From: Longimicrobiales bacterium
GTDB taxonomy: Bacteria > Gemmatimonadota > Gemmatimonadetes > Longimicrobiales > Gaopeijiaceae
Direction of reading: 5' to 3'
Assembly: GCA_958295645.1 (NCBI GenBank)
Contig: OY282361.1
Location: 2,694,501 to 2,758,500 of the forward strand
DNA: 64,000 bases
Below are positions 14,565 to 48,431 of this stretch, piece by piece. Under the pieces are notes generated by a model. That model was not told where the DNA came from. It saw only the letters and a list, made by a program, of their open reading frames with translations, and ran no database searches. Each line of letters opens with the position of its first letter. Position 1 is the stretch's first letter. A program made the translations under genes and the position numbers.

Positions 14565-14648
14565 CGGAGGCGGAGGGACTCGAACCCCCAAGTGCTTGCG
14601 CACGCCGCATTTCGAGTGCGGTGCCTTACCAATTAGGACTACGCCTCC
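14565..14648 (-). tRNA. tRNA-Ser (CGA)
   Basis: Acceptor GGAGGCG pairs with CGCCTCC. The anticodon stem CCGCA/TGCGG holds loop CTCGAAA, anticodon CGA. A long variable arm (GTGC-GCAA-GCAC) and discriminator G fit serine. CCA is not encoded. Last gene of the tRNA array. Confidence 0.95.
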
Positions 14649-14697
14649 AGTTGTGCGGCGGCTGGCGATCCGCCGGAACGGCCTGTCGGCCAGAAAA

Positions 14698-14771
14698 TCG
14701 GGGCGCCCGGATTTGAACCGGGGACCTCTGCGACCCGAACGCAGCGCTCTACCGGGCTGAGCCACGCCCCG
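14698..14771 (-). tRNA. tRNA-Pro (CGG)
   Basis: Acceptor CGGGGCG pairs with CGCCCCG. The anticodon stem CTGCG/CGCAG holds loop TTCGGGT, anticodon CGG. Discriminator A; CCA is not encoded. Confidence 0.95.
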
Positions 14772-14843
14772 CCAGTTGTGTGTGAACCGCCGCGCTCCGG
14801 CAACTGCCAGCGAGATGGCCGGCGACCCCGCGGTTCCGTGGAG

Positions 14844-14927
14844 CGGACGGGGTGGGATTCGAACCCACGCGGGCAGATGCCCACACGATTTCCAGTCGTG
14901 CGCCTTAAGCCACTCGGCCACCCGTCC
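14844..14927 (-). tRNA. tRNA-Ser (GGA)
   Basis: Acceptor GGACGGG pairs with CCCGTCC. The anticodon stem CACGA/TCGTG holds loop CTGGAAA, anticodon GGA. Long variable arm (GGGCATCTGCCC), T-loop TTCGAAT, discriminator G. CCA is not encoded. Confidence 0.95.
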
Positions 14928-14968
14928 TTCAAGGCGCCGCGCGCAGGTCCGCCCGGCGTCTCGAAAAG

Positions 14969-15053
14969 CGGAGGGAGTGGGATTCGAACCCACGTGGTCC
15001 TAGGGACCAACGCCTTAGCAGGGCGCCGCTTTTAGCCGCTCAGCCATCCCTCC
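14969..15053 (-). tRNA. tRNA-Ser (GCT)
   Basis: Acceptor GGAGGGA pairs with TCCCTCC. The loop CTGCTAA gives anticodon GCT. Long variable arm (GGTCCCTAGGACC) and discriminator G mark serine. CCA is not encoded. Confidence 0.95.
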
Positions 15054-15057
15054 GAAG

Positions 15058-15130
15058 TAGCCCCGCCTGGGTTCGAACCAGGACTCTTCTGATCCAGAGT
15101 CAGACGTGTTGCCAATTACACCACGGGGCT
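15058..15130 (-). tRNA. tRNA-Gln (CTG)
   Basis: Acceptor AGCCCCG pairs with CGGGGCT. The anticodon stem TCTGA/TCAGA holds loop CTCTGGA, anticodon CTG. Discriminator A; CCA is not encoded. It starts only 4 bp after the 3' end of the next array member's spacer, so spacing here is very tight. Confidence 0.95.
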
Positions 15131-15148
15131 GTCCGCCGTCCTGCCGAG

Positions 15149-15221
15149 AGCCACCGGTCGGACTCGAACCGACGACCCCGTCATTACGAGTGACGTGCTC
15201 TACCAGCTGAGCTACGGTGGC
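15149..15221 (-). tRNA. tRNA-Thr (CGT)
   Basis: Acceptor GCCACCG pairs with CGGTGGC. The anticodon stem CGTCA/TGACG holds loop CTCGTAA, anticodon CGT. Discriminator T, as is common for threonine. CCA is not encoded. Confidence 0.95.
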
Positions 15222-15256
15222 GTCTCCGTCGCTTGCCTGCCGGCAAGGCCGGAAAA

Positions 15257-15329
15257 TGGAGCCGAGGGGAGTCGAACCCCTGACCTCAGCATTGCGAACG
15301 CTGCGCTCTCCCAACTGAGCTACGGCCCC
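15257..15329 (-). tRNA. tRNA-Ala (CGC)
   Basis: Acceptor GGGGCCG pairs with CGGCTCC, including the G3:T70 pair that identifies alanine. The loop TTCGCAA gives anticodon CGC. Discriminator A; CCA is not encoded. Confidence 0.95.
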
Positions 15330-15337
15330 TCTCGTCA

Positions 15338-15411
15338 TGGGCGCGACAGGACTCGAACCTGTGACCTCCACGATGTCAACGTGGCACTCTAACCAGCTGA
15401 GCTACGCGCCC
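15338..15411 (-). tRNA. tRNA-Val (GAC)
   Basis: Acceptor GGGCGCG pairs with CGCGCCC. The stem CCACG/CGTGG holds loop TTGACAT, anticodon GAC. Discriminator A; CCA is not encoded. Confidence 0.95.
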
Positions 15412-15507
15412 TTTCCGCGTTGCGGCCGCCGCAGGTTCTCTCCGGCAACCCGGCCTTTTCGTGCGACAACCCCACGGTGCTCTCCGGCTTCCGTCACTCT
15501 CGTCCCA

Positions 15508-15581
15508 TGCGCCCGGGAGGACTCGAACCCCCAACCCCCTGATCCGTAGTCAGGTACTCTATCCAATTGAGCTACGGGCGC
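15508..15581 (-). tRNA. tRNA-Arg (ACG)
   Basis: Acceptor GCGCCCG pairs with CGGGCGC. The stem CCTGA/TCAGG holds loop CTACGGA, anticodon ACG, whose A34 is normally deaminated to inosine by TadA. Discriminator A; CCA is not encoded. Confidence 0.95.
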
Positions 15582-15609
15582 GCCCGGCCGGCGCTTTCCG
15601 CCCCGGCCA

Positions 15610-15693
15610 TGCCCACGACAGGACTCGAACCTGTACGTCCTTTCGAACACTGGTCCCTCAAACCAGCCTGTCTACCAATTCCAGCACGTGGGC
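15610..15693 (-). tRNA. tRNA-Leu (GAG)
   Basis: Acceptor GCCCACG pairs with CGTGGGC. The stem CTGGT/ACCAG holds loop TTGAGGG, anticodon GAG. A long variable arm fits leucine. Discriminator A; CCA is not encoded. Confidence 0.95.
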
Positions 15694-15715
15694 GGCCACT
15701 TGTCCCCAAAAGGGA

Positions 15716-15800
15716 TGCTCGGGGAGGGACTCGAACCCTCACGGGGTTAACCCCCACAGGATCCTGAATCCTGCGCGTCTACCAATTCCGCCACCCGAGC
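15716..15800 (-). tRNA. tRNA-Leu (CAG)
   Basis: Acceptor GCTCGGG pairs with CCCGAGC. The stem CAGGA/TCCTG holds loop TTCAGGA, anticodon CAG. Long variable arm (GGGGGTTAACCCC). Discriminator A; CCA is not encoded. Confidence 0.95.
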
Positions 15801-15832
15801 TTCGGCCGGGCCAACGACCCGGCCACCGGCAG

Positions 15833-15905
15833 TGGAGCCGAGGGGAGTCGAACCCCTGACCTCCTGAATGCCATTCAGGCGCTCTCCCAACTGAGCTACG
15901 GCCCC
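15833..15905 (-). tRNA. tRNA-Ala (GGC)
   Basis: Same acceptor, D and T arms as the Ala(CGC) gene at 15257, again with G3:T70. The stem CCTGA/TCAGG holds loop ATGGCAT, anticodon GGC. Discriminator A; CCA is not encoded. Confidence 0.95.
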
Positions 15906-15966
15906 TGCCGGATGCGATGCGAGCCAGGAGCTCGCTCGACGACCCATCTTTTCAAACACCGCCTCA

Positions 15967-16041
15967 CGGGGCTGACGGGACTCGAACCCGCGGCCTCCGG
16001 TGTGACAGACCGGCACTCTAACCAAACTGAGCTACAGCCCC
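15967..16041 (-). tRNA. tRNA-Asp (GTC)
   Basis: Acceptor GGGGCTG pairs with CAGCCCC. The stem CCGGT/ACCGG holds loop CTGTCAC, anticodon GTC. Discriminator G, as expected for aspartate. CCA is not encoded. Confidence 0.95.
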
Positions 16042-16093
16042 TTGGCCCTCCTTCTTCCGGGGACCCCGGCCCCTCGCCACCAGGAGCCCCCGA

Positions 16094-16165
16094 TACCCTC
16101 ACGGGGAATCGAACCCCGATCTCCACCTTGAAAGAGTGGTGTCCTAACCGTTAGACGATGAGGGC
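16094..16165 (-). tRNA. tRNA-Glu (TTC)
   Basis: Acceptor GCCCTCA pairs with TGAGGGT (one G:T). The stem CCACT/GGTGG holds loop CTTTCAA, anticodon TTC. It is the only array member with a T in the wobble position. CCA is not encoded. Confidence 0.95.
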
Positions 16166-16176
16166 GCCCCTCGAGG

Positions 16177-16250
16177 CAGGCCCGGAGGGACTCGAACCCC
16201 CAACCGCCGGTTTTGGAGACCGGTGCTCTACCAAGTTGAGCTACGGACCT
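16177..16250 (-). tRNA. tRNA-Trp (CCA)
   Basis: Acceptor AGGTCCG pairs with CGGGCCT. The stem CCGGT/ACCGG holds loop CTCCAAA, anticodon CCA. Discriminator G, as expected for tryptophan. The 3' CCA end is not encoded. Confidence 0.95.
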
Positions 16251-16267
16251 GTTTGTCGCTTCCCGCA

Positions 16268-16340
16268 TGGCCAGGGGCGGAATTGAACCGCCGACACCGC
16301 GATTTTCAGTCGCGTGCTCTACCAACTGAGCTACCTGGCC
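16268..16340 (-). tRNA. tRNA-Phe (GAA)
   Basis: Acceptor GGCCAGG pairs with CCTGGCC. The stem CGCGA/TCGCG holds loop CTGAAAA, anticodon GAA. Discriminator A; CCA is not encoded. Confidence 0.95.
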
Positions 16341-16488
16341 AATCCCCCAAACCCTGCCGACAAAAAACCGACCGGGCTCGTTCCGGCCACGGCTCCAGCC
16401 ACCGCGCCCGTACCAGATCCCCTGGCCGGCCTAGCTCCGGCGCCGCCTCCCGCGCGGGCGACGATGCCGGATGTCCTCTTACGAGTCA

Positions 16489-16562
<74 letters not shown>

Positions 16563-43430: not shown

Positions 43431-43988
43431 CTATCGGTAGAACCATTGGTCGAAGGTCAAAGTCCTAAGTTTCCGAGCAACGCTACGTGCCGTGGCCGGA
43501 AACCACGCTAGCTCCCGTGCGTTGCCCGTGGGGTCGGCAGCAGAACGGCAATGCACCCCACGTAGCCCGGACGCCTTTGCTGCCGCTCCGACGGGCTGGC
43601 ACAACGCGTGCGGCACCTCGTGTCCCTTGCGTGAAATCGGGTATGTCGCCGGCAGTCCGGCTGCCGCGAGGCCTTCCGGTGTGTGCGCGTCGCAGACGAC
43701 TTGTCGAGATGGCAGTCGACATTCTACCAGCACCGGCCCGTTGACGTCGCTGAGCTCTTCTGGTTCGTATGGCCACTTTCTTGCAAATCGATGCATGTTC
43801 ATCCGAGCTGTACCTTCGTCTTCACTGAGATACAACGTGGCGTAGCTCTTGGGAGGATTCCAGCGACCGCCCTTGTTGCCGGCAAATGTTGGATCAAGCG
43901 GATCGTCCCAACGTTTCTCCGCAATGCGCCACCAACTCGTTGCATCGACAAGTGTCTCGGTCTTTTGTTTCATAACGTCGTTCTTCAA
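43431..43988 (-). CDS. RES-domain protein, toxin-like
   Basis: The protein has 185 residues with a TTG start (TTGA overlap with the preceding gene). The RES-domain pattern is visible: WWRIAEKRWDDPLDPTFAG, KGGRWNPP, ATLYLSEDEGTAR and a C-terminal ARELAWFPATARSV. RES toxins degrade NAD+ and are normally paired with an Xre/MbcA-like antitoxin. Here the usual alanine/leucine-glutamate block after YLS is altered, so activity is uncertain. It ends a coupled three-gene set with an unknown gene and a TIGR04255-like gene, all AT-richer than their flanks. Confidence 0.75.
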   Translation of the reverse strand: MKNDVMKQKTETLVDATSWWRIAEKRWDDPLDPTFAGNKGGRWNPPKSYATLYLSEDEGTARMNMHRFARKWPYEPEELSDVNGPVLVECRLPSRQVVCDAHTPEGLAAAGLPATYPISRKGHEVPHALCQPVGAAAKASGLRGVHCRSAADPTGNARELAWFPATARSVARKLRTLTFDQWFYR

Positions 43989-44524
43989 TCTTGAACGTTG
44001 TCAAACTTGAACATCTCGCGACAAACATGCAACAACTCTGTAGTATTCCCTTCTAATAGTAGTTCTACCAACATTTTTCCGTTCATTGCTTGGCTTGATC
44101 TTCGCACGATCCCTGCGATTCGATCTCGTTTAAGATAGTGCACCAGCAAGTCCGTGGCAGTTTCGATGTCAGCTACAGCGGCTTGGTCAAGGTTTAACTT
44201 GCCGATGCAAATTGCTTCCCTGTGACTAAGTGCCCAAAGTTCAATGATTCTCTCATTGACGGAAGGAAAATCTGTTTCACGCTGAACTTCGGGATTGGGA
44301 TGCGTTCCTCGAACGAGAAAGGTCGGCACAGCAGATTGCCAGTTGAGATCTATCAGTGCGCCGACCGCACCAGTAGGGTTACTGATGTCAAATGAACGAA
44401 AGCGAGGAATAGATTGATTCCTAGCGACGAATACTACCTCGTCACAACCCGACCGGTTAGTGGACAAGTATGTCAGCTCAGACGATCGCATTATAATATT
44501 TCTCGCGGTTTGTGACGGATTCAT
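43985..44524 (-). CDS. unknown protein between RES and TIGR04255-like genes
   Basis: The protein has 179 residues and is soluble; I do not recognise the family. It does not match the Xre/MbcA/ParS-type antitoxin that normally partners RES toxins: no helix-turn-helix and no C-terminal toxin-binding pattern is evident. Segments such as VNERIIELWALSHREAICIGKLNLDQAA and MLVELLLEGNTTELLHVCREMF are helical. The start overlaps the upstream stop (ATGA) and the stop overlaps the RES start (TTGA), so all three proteins are made together. By position it could be the neutralising partner of the RES protein. Confidence 0.6.
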   Translation of the reverse strand: MNPSQTARNIIMRSSELTYLSTNRSGCDEVVFVARNQSIPRFRSFDISNPTGAVGALIDLNWQSAVPTFLVRGTHPNPEVQRETDFPSVNERIIELWALSHREAICIGKLNLDQAAVADIETATDLLVHYLKRDRIAGIVRRSSQAMNGKMLVELLLEGNTTELLHVCREMFKFDNVQD

Positions 44525-45396
44525 GGTTTTCCCCCATAGTACCGCAAGAAGTCATCAGTTATCATGTATCGAAAAAGCGAATACAGGCATTCCGCGAAAC
44601 CGGCCGCCGTACTTATCAACACTGACGTTTCAAAATTATGTGACTGTGTCGTCGACATATCCATATCTAACACCCAGCTTTCTTCGTCTACGGGTTCAAT
44701 CATATCAGGATCGTGGCTTGCATTGGGTGGCATCATGCCCCAGCGTCCCAAGATGATGTTGCCATCGAAAGCACGAAACTGAACTTGTGTCATCATGTTA
44801 AGAATCGATTTCTCGATCTCGTTTGATTCAGTGTCAGCACGACCAAATATTCCCAACACCCTTGGTTTGACGAGCCGGTCGGAAAGACGAACTGCGTCGC
44901 CGGTCAATCGATCAATGTAACGAAGCCCTAGCCGGGTAGCCGCGGCCGGAGAAAAAACACTGTGGACAGCATCTACGACAACACGAAACCGATCCAGGAA
45001 GTCGCTACGGCTCGTGTAGTGGCGTGTCTCCAAGGCCACAAAGTCTTGTCCAAGAGAAATTCGCCAATCCGGATCTTGCCCTGAGTCGGCAAGGCGCCAA
45101 ATATGAGTTCGCTGAATATTCGGCTCCGAGTCTCCAGTCATACTGATCCGGCAGACGTATTCCTCCGACAAGTGCGGATAGCGATCCCGCAACATCTCCT
45201 GAAAATCGGCGGCGGTGTTGCTCCGGGCAATTGTCAAGATTGGGGGGAACCGGACTTGGGCCACGACCGCAACCAACGGCGTCCGGGGCAACGGCACTTC
45301 AGCAACCGGCGTTAGGCGTAGGGGTTGAGGCTTCGTCACTTCCAGTGATTGGCTGTTGGGATTCGGGACCAGGAGACGATCCAGCGAACCTAACAT
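44521..45396 (-). CDS. TIGR04255 family protein
   Basis: The protein has about 291 residues; ATG 45396 is used, but other starts (ATG 45426) are possible and no good ribosome site was seen. It carries the family's opening LPRTPLVAVVAQVRFPPI, the middle RLGLRYIDRLTGDA, and the long C-terminal blocks SWVLDMDMSTT and FRYMITDDFLRYYG. TIGR04255 proteins are sporadically distributed and uncharacterised. It is first in the RES cassette and divergent from hisG. The frame continues upstream to 46557 but that part is a shadow of hisG. Confidence 0.75.
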   Translation of the reverse strand: MLGSLDRLLVPNPNSQSLEVTKPQPLRLTPVAEVPLPRTPLVAVVAQVRFPPILTIARSNTAADFQEMLRDRYPHLSEEYVCRISMTGDSEPNIQRTHIWRLADSGQDPDWRISLGQDFVALETRHYTSRSDFLDRFRVVVDAVHSVFSPAAATRLGLRYIDRLTGDAVRLSDRLVKPRVLGIFGRADTESNEIEKSILNMMTQVQFRAFDGNIILGRWGMMPPNASHDPDMIEPVDEESWVLDMDMSTTQSHNFETSVLISTAAGFAECLYSLFRYMITDDFLRYYGGKP

Positions 45397-45576
45397 CACG
45401 CGCGAATGCTTCGCAAGCCGCCGCATGTCGTCAAATGGAGCATCCGTTGTCTTCGTGGTGCATGACCGTCGCGAATCGGAGCACCCTGCGCCGACGACCC
45501 GCGGCCAATCCAGCCAAGCGACTGACCGCGCATCGTCGTACCCACGGCAGCTGTCGGGAGTCCTCGTCGCCGTCAC

Positions 45577-45666
45577 TTGACCACCGGCCCCAGCCTCGCG
45601 ATCGTTCGCATAGAACAGCGCCGGTGGCGCGCCGCCCTCGAACGCTTCAGGGGCGGCGCTTTTTTT
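45577..45666 (+). terminator. intrinsic terminator / attenuator candidate in the his leader
   Basis: A perfect 9-bp stem GCGCCGCCC / GGGCGGCGC (45629-45637, 45651-45659) with a 13-nt loop is followed by seven T (45660-45666), 64 bp before the hisG start. A competing hairpin GCGCC-GGT-GGCGC (45618-45630) overlaps the first two bases of the terminator stem. A weak promoter-like pair lies at 45577 (TTGACC) and 45600 (GATCGT), 17 bp apart. No plus-strand gene ends here, so the terminator most likely controls the his operon. No His-rich leader peptide was found. Confidence 0.6.
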
Positions 45667-45729
45667 CGCCCCGCCGACACCCGCGACCCGCCGGTCGCAC
45701 GGACGAAGCCCCGGACGGAGGTTGCAAGC

Positions 45730-46683
45730 GTGAGCAGTTCGCGAGGCGCCACGCCCGAGGGGCCGGAGACGCCGGTCGGCCAGCCGGGAGGCGGGGAGCG
45801 CCCGTCGTGGCGCGGCGATGGGGCGGGTGCGATTCGCCTCGCCTTGCCCAAGGGGCGGATGCAGGCCGGCGTGCTGGAGTTGCTCGCCGACGCAGGGATC
45901 GGCGTTAGGCTGGCCGAACGGAGCTACCGGCCGTTCCTCTCCTGGCCCGGGTTCGACGCCAAGCTGCTCAAGCCGCAGAACGTCGTGGAGATGTTGCAGG
46001 CGGGCTCTCGCGACGTGGGGTTCGCGGGCGCCGACTGGGTCGCCGAACTGGAGGCCGACCTCGTGGAGCTTCTGGACACCGGGCTCGACCCGGTGAGCGT
46101 GGTCGCCGCAGCCCCTCGCGCACTGGCCGCCGGAGGAGCGTTGCCGTCCGGCCAGCCGCTGGTTGCGGCGTCGGAGTACGTGCGCTTGGCACGCGAGTGG
46201 ATCGCCCGCACCTCCATCGACGCGACGCTCGTGCGCTCCTACGGCGCGACGGAGGCGTTCCCGCCCGAAGACGCGGACGTGATCGTGGACAACACGGCCA
46301 CCGGCGCCACGCTCCGCCGCAACGGTTTGGTGGTGGTGGACAGGCTGATGCGCTCCTCCACGCGTCTCTACGCGAATCGCGCCGCCCTCGCGGACAGCGC
46401 CAAGAGCGGGCCGATTCGGGACTTGGCCATGTTGCTCCGGTCCGTTCTGGAGGCGCGCAGCCGGGTCATGCTCGATCTCAACGTCTCGGAGGAGGCCTTC
46501 GAGCGGGTGATCGGAGCCCTGCCTTGCATGCGCAAGCCGACGGTGGCGAGACTGCACGGCGAGTCCGCCTACTCGGTGAGGGCCGCCGTGCCCCGCAAGG
46601 GCCTCCCCGAACTGCTGGTCCGCCTCCGCACGCTCGGAGCGACCGACCTCGTGGTCGCGCAGCCCCGGCAGATCGTCCAGTGA
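45730..46683 (+). CDS. hisG: ATP phosphoribosyltransferase, long form
   Basis: It condenses ATP and PRPP, the first and regulated step of histidine synthesis. The protein has 317 residues from GTG 45730, with GGAGG eight bases upstream. Catalytic-domain blocks are [31 protein letters not shown] and [18 protein letters not shown] with the PRPP-binding site. The ~75-residue C-terminal ACT-like domain ([30 protein letters not shown]) shows this is the long form, feedback-inhibited by histidine without HisZ. First gene of a seven-gene operon. Confidence 0.95.
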
Positions 46684-48431
46684 TTCTCGACCTCAGCCTC
46701 AACGAGGGCGCGCCGCCCCCGCGCCAGTGCCTGGACGACCTGGCTGCGCACGACCCGCGGCTGCTCGCCAAGTACCCCGACCCCGCCCCGCTCGAAGCGG
46801 CCTACGCGGCCGACCTGGGTGCCGACCCGGCCTGCGTGCTGGCGACGACGGGCGGAGACGACGCGATCGACCGCGTCATGCGGGCCTCTCTCTCGCCGGG
46901 CCGAGAACTCGTCTTCCCGTCGCCGACCTTCGAGGTGATCCCGCACTGCGGGCGCATGGCGGGTGCGACGCTGGCGCCGGTCGAATACGAATGGGGCGCC
47001 TTGCCTCGCCAGGCCGTCGTGGAGGCCGTCTCCGAGAGGACCGCCGTCGTGGCCGTGGTGTCTCCCAACAATCCCACGGGCTGCGCAATGGCGGAACGGG
47101 ACTTGGTCGCGCTGGCCGAGGACCTTCCCGAACACGTCCTCTTGATGGTCGACCTGGCCTACGCGGAGTTCGCGGACCACGACCCGGCCCCGGCGTTGCT
47201 GGGCAGGCCGCGCGTCGTGATGATCCGCACGCTGTCCAAGGCCTGGGGGCTGGCCGGACTGCGCGTCGGCTTCGCCGTGGGAACGCCCGAGCGGATCGCG
47301 ACGCTGCGCGCCTTCGGAGGTCCCTTCCCGGTCGGCGGACCGGCGGCAGCTGTCGCCACGGACCAGCTGAAGCGGGGCAGGGGCCGGATGCGGGCCTTCG
47401 CGGCCTCGGTACGGCCGCGCCGGGCCAAGCTGGCCGCCCTCCTCCGGGACGCCGGCGGAGAGCCCGTGCCGTCGCAAGCCAACTTCGTCCTCGCCCGCTT
47501 CCCCGATACGCGCTGGATCGACCGCGGCTTGGCTGCCCAAGGCGTGCGCATTCGTCTGTTCGACAGCTTGCCGGGCTACGCGCGCGTCGCCGTGCCGCCG
47601 GGCGACGCGGAGTTTCGGCGCTTCGAGCGGGCGATGGAATGTCTGCGCGGGCCGGAGGCGCTGCTGTTCGACATGGACGGCGTGCTGGCCAACGTGCGGC
47701 AATCCTACCGTGCGGCCATCGTGGCCGCCTGCGAATCGTTCGGGATCGCCGTCGGTCCCCCCGAAATCGACGCCGCCAAGGCGAAGGGCAATGCGAACGA
47801 CGACTGGGCGCTGACCCGCTCCCTTCTGCAGGAGGCCGGCGTGGACGTGCCGCTCGACGAAGTGCGGAAACGTTTCGAGGCAGCCTACCAAGGTTCGAAA
47901 GACGCGCCGGGATTGCGCCGCTTCGAGACGCTGATCCCGCCGCGCGACTGGCTGGACGCGCTCGCCGGACGCTTTCGGCTCGGGATCGTGACGGGCCGCC
48001 CCCGTCGCGACGCCTTCCGCTTCTTGGAAGAACGCGGGCTGCGCGAACTCTTCGGCGCGGTGGTCTGCCGAGAAGACGCGCCCCTCAAGCCGGATCCCGC
48101 CCCCGTGGCCCTCGCCATGCGCCAGTTGGAAGTCGGCACGGCCTGGATGTTCGGCGACACCCGCGACGATATTCTTGCAGCAGGCGAAGCGGGCGTGGTG
48201 CCTGTCGGGGTTGTTCCGCCCGGCGCGTCCGGCGCGGCACGAGAGGTTCTGTGGGAGGCGGGAGCCGCTCGAGTCGTGGACGCGAGCGACGCGAGTTCCT
48301 GGGGACGGCTGAACCTCGCCGATCCCGCGTGGGCCGTGGAGCGAAGCGGGCCGACTGCACAGCCTCGAAGCCGACCGTCGCCGGGCGCCTCCGGGCCGCC
48401 CAGGCAAGCCACGGTTCTGGAAGGAGCATGA
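46680..48431 (+). CDS. hisC: fused histidinol-phosphate aminotransferase and HAD phosphatase
   Basis: The protein has 583 residues from GTG 46680 (GTGA overlap with hisG). Residues ~1-325 are a class I/II PLP aminotransferase of the HisC type: [32 protein letters not shown] and the PLP lysine in [17 protein letters not shown]. Residues ~330-550 are a HAD phosphatase of subfamily [16 protein letters not shown] (DxD), [24 protein letters not shown] and [15 protein letters not shown]. As no other histidinol-phosphatase is in the operon, the HAD half probably supplies that step. The pair would then perform consecutive reactions on imidazoleacetol phosphate and histidinol phosphate. A disordered ~35-residue tail follows. 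Confidence 0.9.

Follow-up and report, generated by a model that had tools for sequence, protein, structure and literature searches.

An intrinsic terminator without a leader ORF before hisG in a Longimicrobiales bacterium: a likely derivative of a ribosome-mediated histidine attenuator

In the CTP-sensing pyrG attenuator of Bacillus, transcription meets a terminator shortly after it starts; the leader is very short and encodes no leader peptide. Ribosome-mediated attenuation at histidine codons is classical in Proteobacteria and is reported for some Firmicutes (PMC9413887). The trpL attenuator RNA of S. meliloti starts with the ATG of its leader ORF (PMC7298713). Our literature searches on leader-peptide attenuation found no report of His leaders in Gemmatimonadota. 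A paper retrieved for Planctomycetes, searched for four terms including histidine, showed no result on his leaders; for His leader peptides in Actinobacteria it refers to a meeting paper of 2015.

We analyzed a 64-kb stretch of DNA from a Longimicrobiales bacterium (OY282361.1, 2,694,501-2,758,500; its genome is designated G000), which is referred to as the window throughout. The following features are located at and upstream of hisG:

44524-45396, minus strand: TIGR04255 gene, the nearest gene upstream of hisG
45577-45582, plus strand: -35-like box TTGACC of the inferred his promoter, matching in position and spacing the TTGAC boxes found in all 31 related leaders compared
45600-45605, plus strand: -10-like box GATCGT, 17 nt after the -35-like box and aligned with those of relatives (GACGAT, GATCCT and similar)
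45618-45630, plus strand: small 5' hairpin GCGCC-GGT-GGCGC, seen in the sequence and present in the lowest-energy fold of the short RNA
45629-45666, plus strand: intrinsic terminator with a 9-bp stem, a 13-nt loop and T7 (-23.1 kcal/mol)
45717-45721, plus strand: ribosome-binding site GGAGG of hisG, read directly
45730-46683, plus strand: hisG, ATP phosphoribosyltransferase, first gene of the his cluster (PF01634, PF08029, TIGR00070, TIGR03455)

The terminator consists of a 5' arm, GCGCCGCCC (45629-45637), a 3' arm, GGGCGGCGC (45651-45659), and seven T (45660-45666), all read directly from the sequence; hisG follows with a GTG start codon at 45730, with GGAGG in front. An earlier note on this DNA had described a perfect 9-bp G+C hairpin with seven T upstream of hisG, which we confirm. 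It had also described a second hairpin overlapping the first: this hairpin exists at 45618-45630, but its overlap with the terminator arm is just 2 nt. Its remark that no plus-strand gene upstream needs a terminator holds as well, the nearest upstream gene lying on the minus strand, and the coordinate at which it began the element, 45577, is the first base of the TTGACC box.

A strict scan of the 64 kb on both strands (at least nine perfect pairs, loop of 3-15, at least six T of eight) returned the hisG terminator as its sole site, compared to a mean of 0.02 and a maximum of 1 in 50 dinucleotide shuffles. The terminator was again the sole site in the window under a looser rule (stem 7, five T; shuffle mean 0.64). 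A general terminator scan of 44000-47000 showed no excess (2 sites, shuffle mean 2.7); its loop limit of 8 misses the stem with the 13-nt loop, and it gave a weaker inner hairpin there. At a threshold of at least five T and -14 kcal/mol, six sites matched in a 264-kb sample of G000, composed of the window and ten 20-kb samples; the one before hisG alone has more than five T and is by far the strongest. The same threshold yielded one match in 100 kb of genome G025 and four in 100 kb of genome G024, all with T5. Strong intrinsic terminators seem rare in the sampled genomes of this lineage.

In the window, no short ORF with at least three His in ten codons occurs within 700 nt before the conserved core of HisG. 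HisG of the window's type (E ≤1e-60) is found in 25 of 121 genomes of the family and in 57 of 394 of the class; the search of the genome collection for HisG comprises the best 80 of 124 loci. Of 139 loci, 115 match at 1e-40 or better, and removal of 16 duplicates and of L052, which has no upstream DNA, leaves 98 hisG leaders. A His-rich leader ORF (8-45 codons, at least three His in ten codons, at most 420 nt upstream of the HisG core) is present in 89 of them, compared to 4-12 (mean 7.8) in ten shuffled sets and 6 on the opposite strand. The encoded peptides are exemplified by MNTRTHTPTHHHHGHREAVV (L003) and MKISIHNHSHLHHHPLTGGRLEVCT (L006). The ORF-bearing loci belong mostly to Gemmatimonadota, with further records named Planctomycetota, Actinomycetota, Myxococcota and others. 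Such ORFs, apparently leaderless, are the rule before hisG of the window's type. They also precede a more distant HisG type of the same family and order, in 20 of the 23 loci with enough upstream DNA among the best-scoring loci L008-L031 (700 nt upstream).

With a terminator defined as a hairpin plus T4, 59 of the 98 leaders combine ORF and terminator, and 30 have the ORF without a detected terminator, which may be an effect of the detector or reflect a different mechanism. Seven leaders have neither element (L037, L040, L041, L045, L082, L106, L128), and two have a terminator only: the window and L004 of G025. The earlier description of an attenuator-like leader lacking a His-rich leader peptide is borne out on both counts, as such an ORF is missing and the terminators at this position in relatives belong to His leader-peptide attenuators.

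Two longer frames were considered and rejected. A His ORF within the frame 45231-45908 is not convincing, as its His codons are scattered and the frame crosses the terminator without a stop. A HisG started further upstream, through the terminator, would find an open frame in the window (45577-46683) and in G025, but none of the usual start codons was seen close to where the transcript is predicted to begin; by our own estimate, a frame of this length is likely to be open by chance at this G+C level. Leaders of other amino acid genes were also inspected. We found trpE in four of five genomes searched, with no Trp-rich leader at any of the four, while no hit of the leuA and ilvB models exceeded its cut-off in any of five genomes, among them genomes of the sister genus; in G000 and G025 the hits were weak.

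Leader peptides of the Palauibacter group (L131-L139, L042, L080, L085) mix His with Phe and Tyr codons, as in MTNTHPFFGHYYYHRVRGGR, and this mix is seen in 12 of 12 leaders inspected. These leaders may sense aromatic amino acids besides histidine. HisC is related to aromatic aminotransferases, and at L038 hisC seems, from the ORFs read, to come after hisG. In the window, a HisC-like aminotransferase fused to a HAD hydrolase domain occupies 46680-48428, with NCBIfam hisC and TIGR01548 scores under their cut-offs; at L034, aminotransferase and HAD domains likewise share one open frame. Elsewhere in the window, 17 tRNA genes lie on the minus strand within 2 kb (14565-16562).

The arrangement of promoter and terminator was compared in 31 leaders of the family and the Palauibacter group, in which -10 boxes were picked by fit and are therefore approximate. 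All 31 display TTGAC, a spacer of 16-18 nt, a -10-like box and, 7-9 nt further on (6-11 allowed), the ATG of the His ORF. This placement implies that the leader ORF of the relatives begins at or near the transcript start. By the same alignment, the his transcript of the window is predicted to start at about 45612-45615. The distance from the -10 box to the terminator arm is 107-144 nt in all 31 relatives, compared to 23 nt in the window and 20 nt in G025. The terminators of the window (-23.1 kcal/mol) and G025 (-24.1 kcal/mol, 13 bp with one bulge) are both strong, compared to -12.2 to -26.0 kcal/mol in the 31 relatives. The sequences of the window and G025 terminators differ, and both pair. 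Two stem pairs of the window terminator, 7 and 9, are changed on both sides relative to L115 and still paired, as read from the two sequences.

Both geometries were searched as patterns in whole genomes, each with control patterns. The short geometry matches G000 once, at hisG, and G025 twice, the second match besides hisG having a weak hairpin (-7.1 kcal/mol). G068, G085 and G089 contain it too, at other places, and its backward control matches once each in G024 and G085. The long geometry recovers the his leader in G024, G089, G068, G085 and G160, where it has one additional match; G000 and G025 each contain it at a single non-his place, with weak hairpins of -6.1 and -5.3 kcal/mol, respectively. 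Its controls match once each in G089 and G068 and twice in G160. Two places in sister-genus genomes, L211 (G085) and L212 (G089), share a promoter-proximal terminator of near-identical sequence. The terminator of L211 precedes an NYN-domain gene (PF01936), and the gene behind L212 looks broken; no leader ORF is evident by eye at either.

A careful tree of 23 HisG rows, from which L119 was left out, groups the proteins of the window and G025 as sisters (95/97), as does a quick tree of 105 rows (89); the path between them in the careful tree is 0.43 changes per site. In an RpoB tree of 16 genomes the two genomes pair weakly (76/72). All 17 leaders of the sister genus (g25) in the geometry set carry a His ORF, and so does L005, which branches just outside; L128, a further member of g25, has neither ORF nor terminator. 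The presence of the ORF in the sister genus and in L005 marks its absence in the window and G025 as derived, and one single loss would most simply account for it. Loss of the ORF as such is not unique to this clade, as the seven leaders with neither element illustrate.

In G025, a small ORF and then a sodium:solute symporter gene lie upstream of and divergent to hisG. Both genes recur in this order in the window, where the small ORF shares 66% identity with that of G025 over 70 residues. There, however, a probably acquired stretch of about 2 kb with lower G+C (43434-45396, about 46-57%) separates the symporter region from hisG; it comprises a RES-domain gene (PF08808), a gene of unknown kind and the TIGR04255 gene. 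We rejected this stretch as the cause of the loss of the leader ORF, because G025 lacks both the ORF and the stretch.

We consider it reasonably likely that the leader of the window derives from a ribosome-mediated His attenuator that lost its leader ORF and kept its promoter and terminator, leaving fixed premature termination with read-through. The ancestor would have had a promoter, a leader ORF with a His codon cluster at or next to the transcript start, and then an intrinsic terminator before hisG. Before the window's genus and G025 diverged, their common ancestor would have lost some 85 nt from the region separating the -10 box from the terminator, leader ORF included, while retaining the promoter and terminator. 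RNA polymerase would now reach a strong terminator about 50 nt after the start. Most likely, transcription would then end prematurely at all times, with a constant share of polymerases reading through into hisG: a promoter-proximal brake. As there is no leader ORF, nothing visible couples termination to charged tRNA-His, and the brake, with no ribosome coupling left, would be blind to it. How efficiently the terminator works and the absence of a histidine response are deduced, as is the transcript start, while the missing ORF and its derived absence, the matching promoter and terminator and the sister relation in the HisG tree are read from the sequences themselves.

Several points weigh against this descent from a His attenuator. 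If read-through were not high, a strong terminator that nothing relieves would deprive the cell of its his operon. The -10-like box GATCGT is a poor match to the sigma-70 consensus, and the promoter of the window is absent from the output of the general promoter scan. The small number of terminator-only leaders (two) and the weak RpoB backing for the sister relation weigh in the same direction.

The terminator has been kept in two genera, which suggests that it has some use. It is conceivable, if unlikely, that the attenuator has been re-wired, so that in two genera a leader of about 50 nt with the inherited terminator serves a new sensor in place of ribosome stalling, for instance an RNA-binding protein, a small molecule, nucleotide-dependent initiation or NusA/NusG-dependent pausing. 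The terminator is still strong in both genera despite sequence change, with pairs 7 and 9 maintained relative to L115, in genomes whose samples otherwise rarely show strong intrinsic terminators; furthermore, a terminator of the same geometry, with no evident leader ORF, stands before the NYN-domain gene of a related genome. A search for the sensor speaks against such re-wiring. Rfam detected no RNA family at the hisG leader at gathering score, no T-box or His_leader match in 45400-45740 with E up to 5, and no family at seven related loci examined. A TrpR/HisR-family gene (PF01371) was found in none of seven genomes, G000 and G025 included; in a control search over 14 genomes, the two with matches were E. 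coli and B. subtilis. The sequence shows no stretch of a single repeated base where the transcript is predicted to begin, and when the window and G025 leaders were aligned, no shared motif was seen beyond promoter and stem.

Folding points in the same direction. When folded, the short RNA expected from this leader (about 53 nt) forms the terminator and the small 5' hairpin, with no stable competitor to the terminator. An 8-bp pairing of 45582-45589 with 45620-45627 was rejected, as its left arm lies inside the inferred promoter and it abuts the terminator without competing with it. Simple folding is a blunt test, producing an antiterminator in two of eight relatives and none in six, so that the demonstrated loss covers the leader ORF and the spacing, and any loss of an antiterminator lies beyond this approach. 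The suggestion in the earlier note that a protein or RNA ligand controls the leader finds no positive support in Rfam families, TrpR/HisR-family genes or a stable antiterminator.

We regard as rather improbable that the hairpin is a neutral remnant without a role and the his operon is transcribed from another promoter. Loss of the sensor makes a terminator a burden, and the seven leaders with neither ORF nor detected terminator, sister-genus L128 among them, fit such a course. However, the retention of the hairpin, intact and strong in both genera across the HisG path between them, argues against a remnant and leaves room for a new sensor; the TTGAC box also stands at matching spacing in both lineages, and no TTGAC box was seen between 45667 and hisG. 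A separate small RNA merely ending at the hisG terminator is very improbable: an RNA of about 53 nt would be made from start to terminator, and a sub-threshold match to sbrA, a Listeria sRNA, spans 45613-45666, but that match (17.4 bits, gathering score 45) has an E-value of 0.42, as expected by chance, and promoter and terminator correspond to the his attenuator of relatives.

Attenuators are usually seen as working wholes, and here, on the preferred reading of a His attenuator that lost its ORF, the terminator seems to outlive its sensor in two genera. The locus offers a natural test of how an unrelieved promoter-proximal terminator affects the amino acid operon behind it, and of the ways in which attenuators come to lose their sensors or exchange them.

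Compared to the described systems, the leader of the window resembles a His T-box in having a terminator before a his gene, but it has no T-box match in Rfam, and an RNA starting at 45612-45615 would be too short for a specifier stem. With the pyrG attenuator of Bacillus it shares a short leader, an early terminator and the absence of a leader peptide; it differs in its pathway and in having no identical-base run at the inferred start. The trpL attenuator of S. meliloti finds its counterpart in the related His leaders, whose ATG placement implies a start-adjacent ORF; this leaderless design is a feature of the relatives, whereas the window has lost the ORF. The closest likeness is to hisL of E. 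coli and Salmonella (RF00514, His_leader), with a terminator before hisG and descent via ORF-bearing relatives. In contrast to hisL, the window lacks a leader ORF and a cluster of His codons, for which there would be no space either, and the His_leader model is unmatched. As the element would descend from a ribosome-mediated His attenuator and yet lacks the defining feature of this class, we view it as a variant rather than a member.
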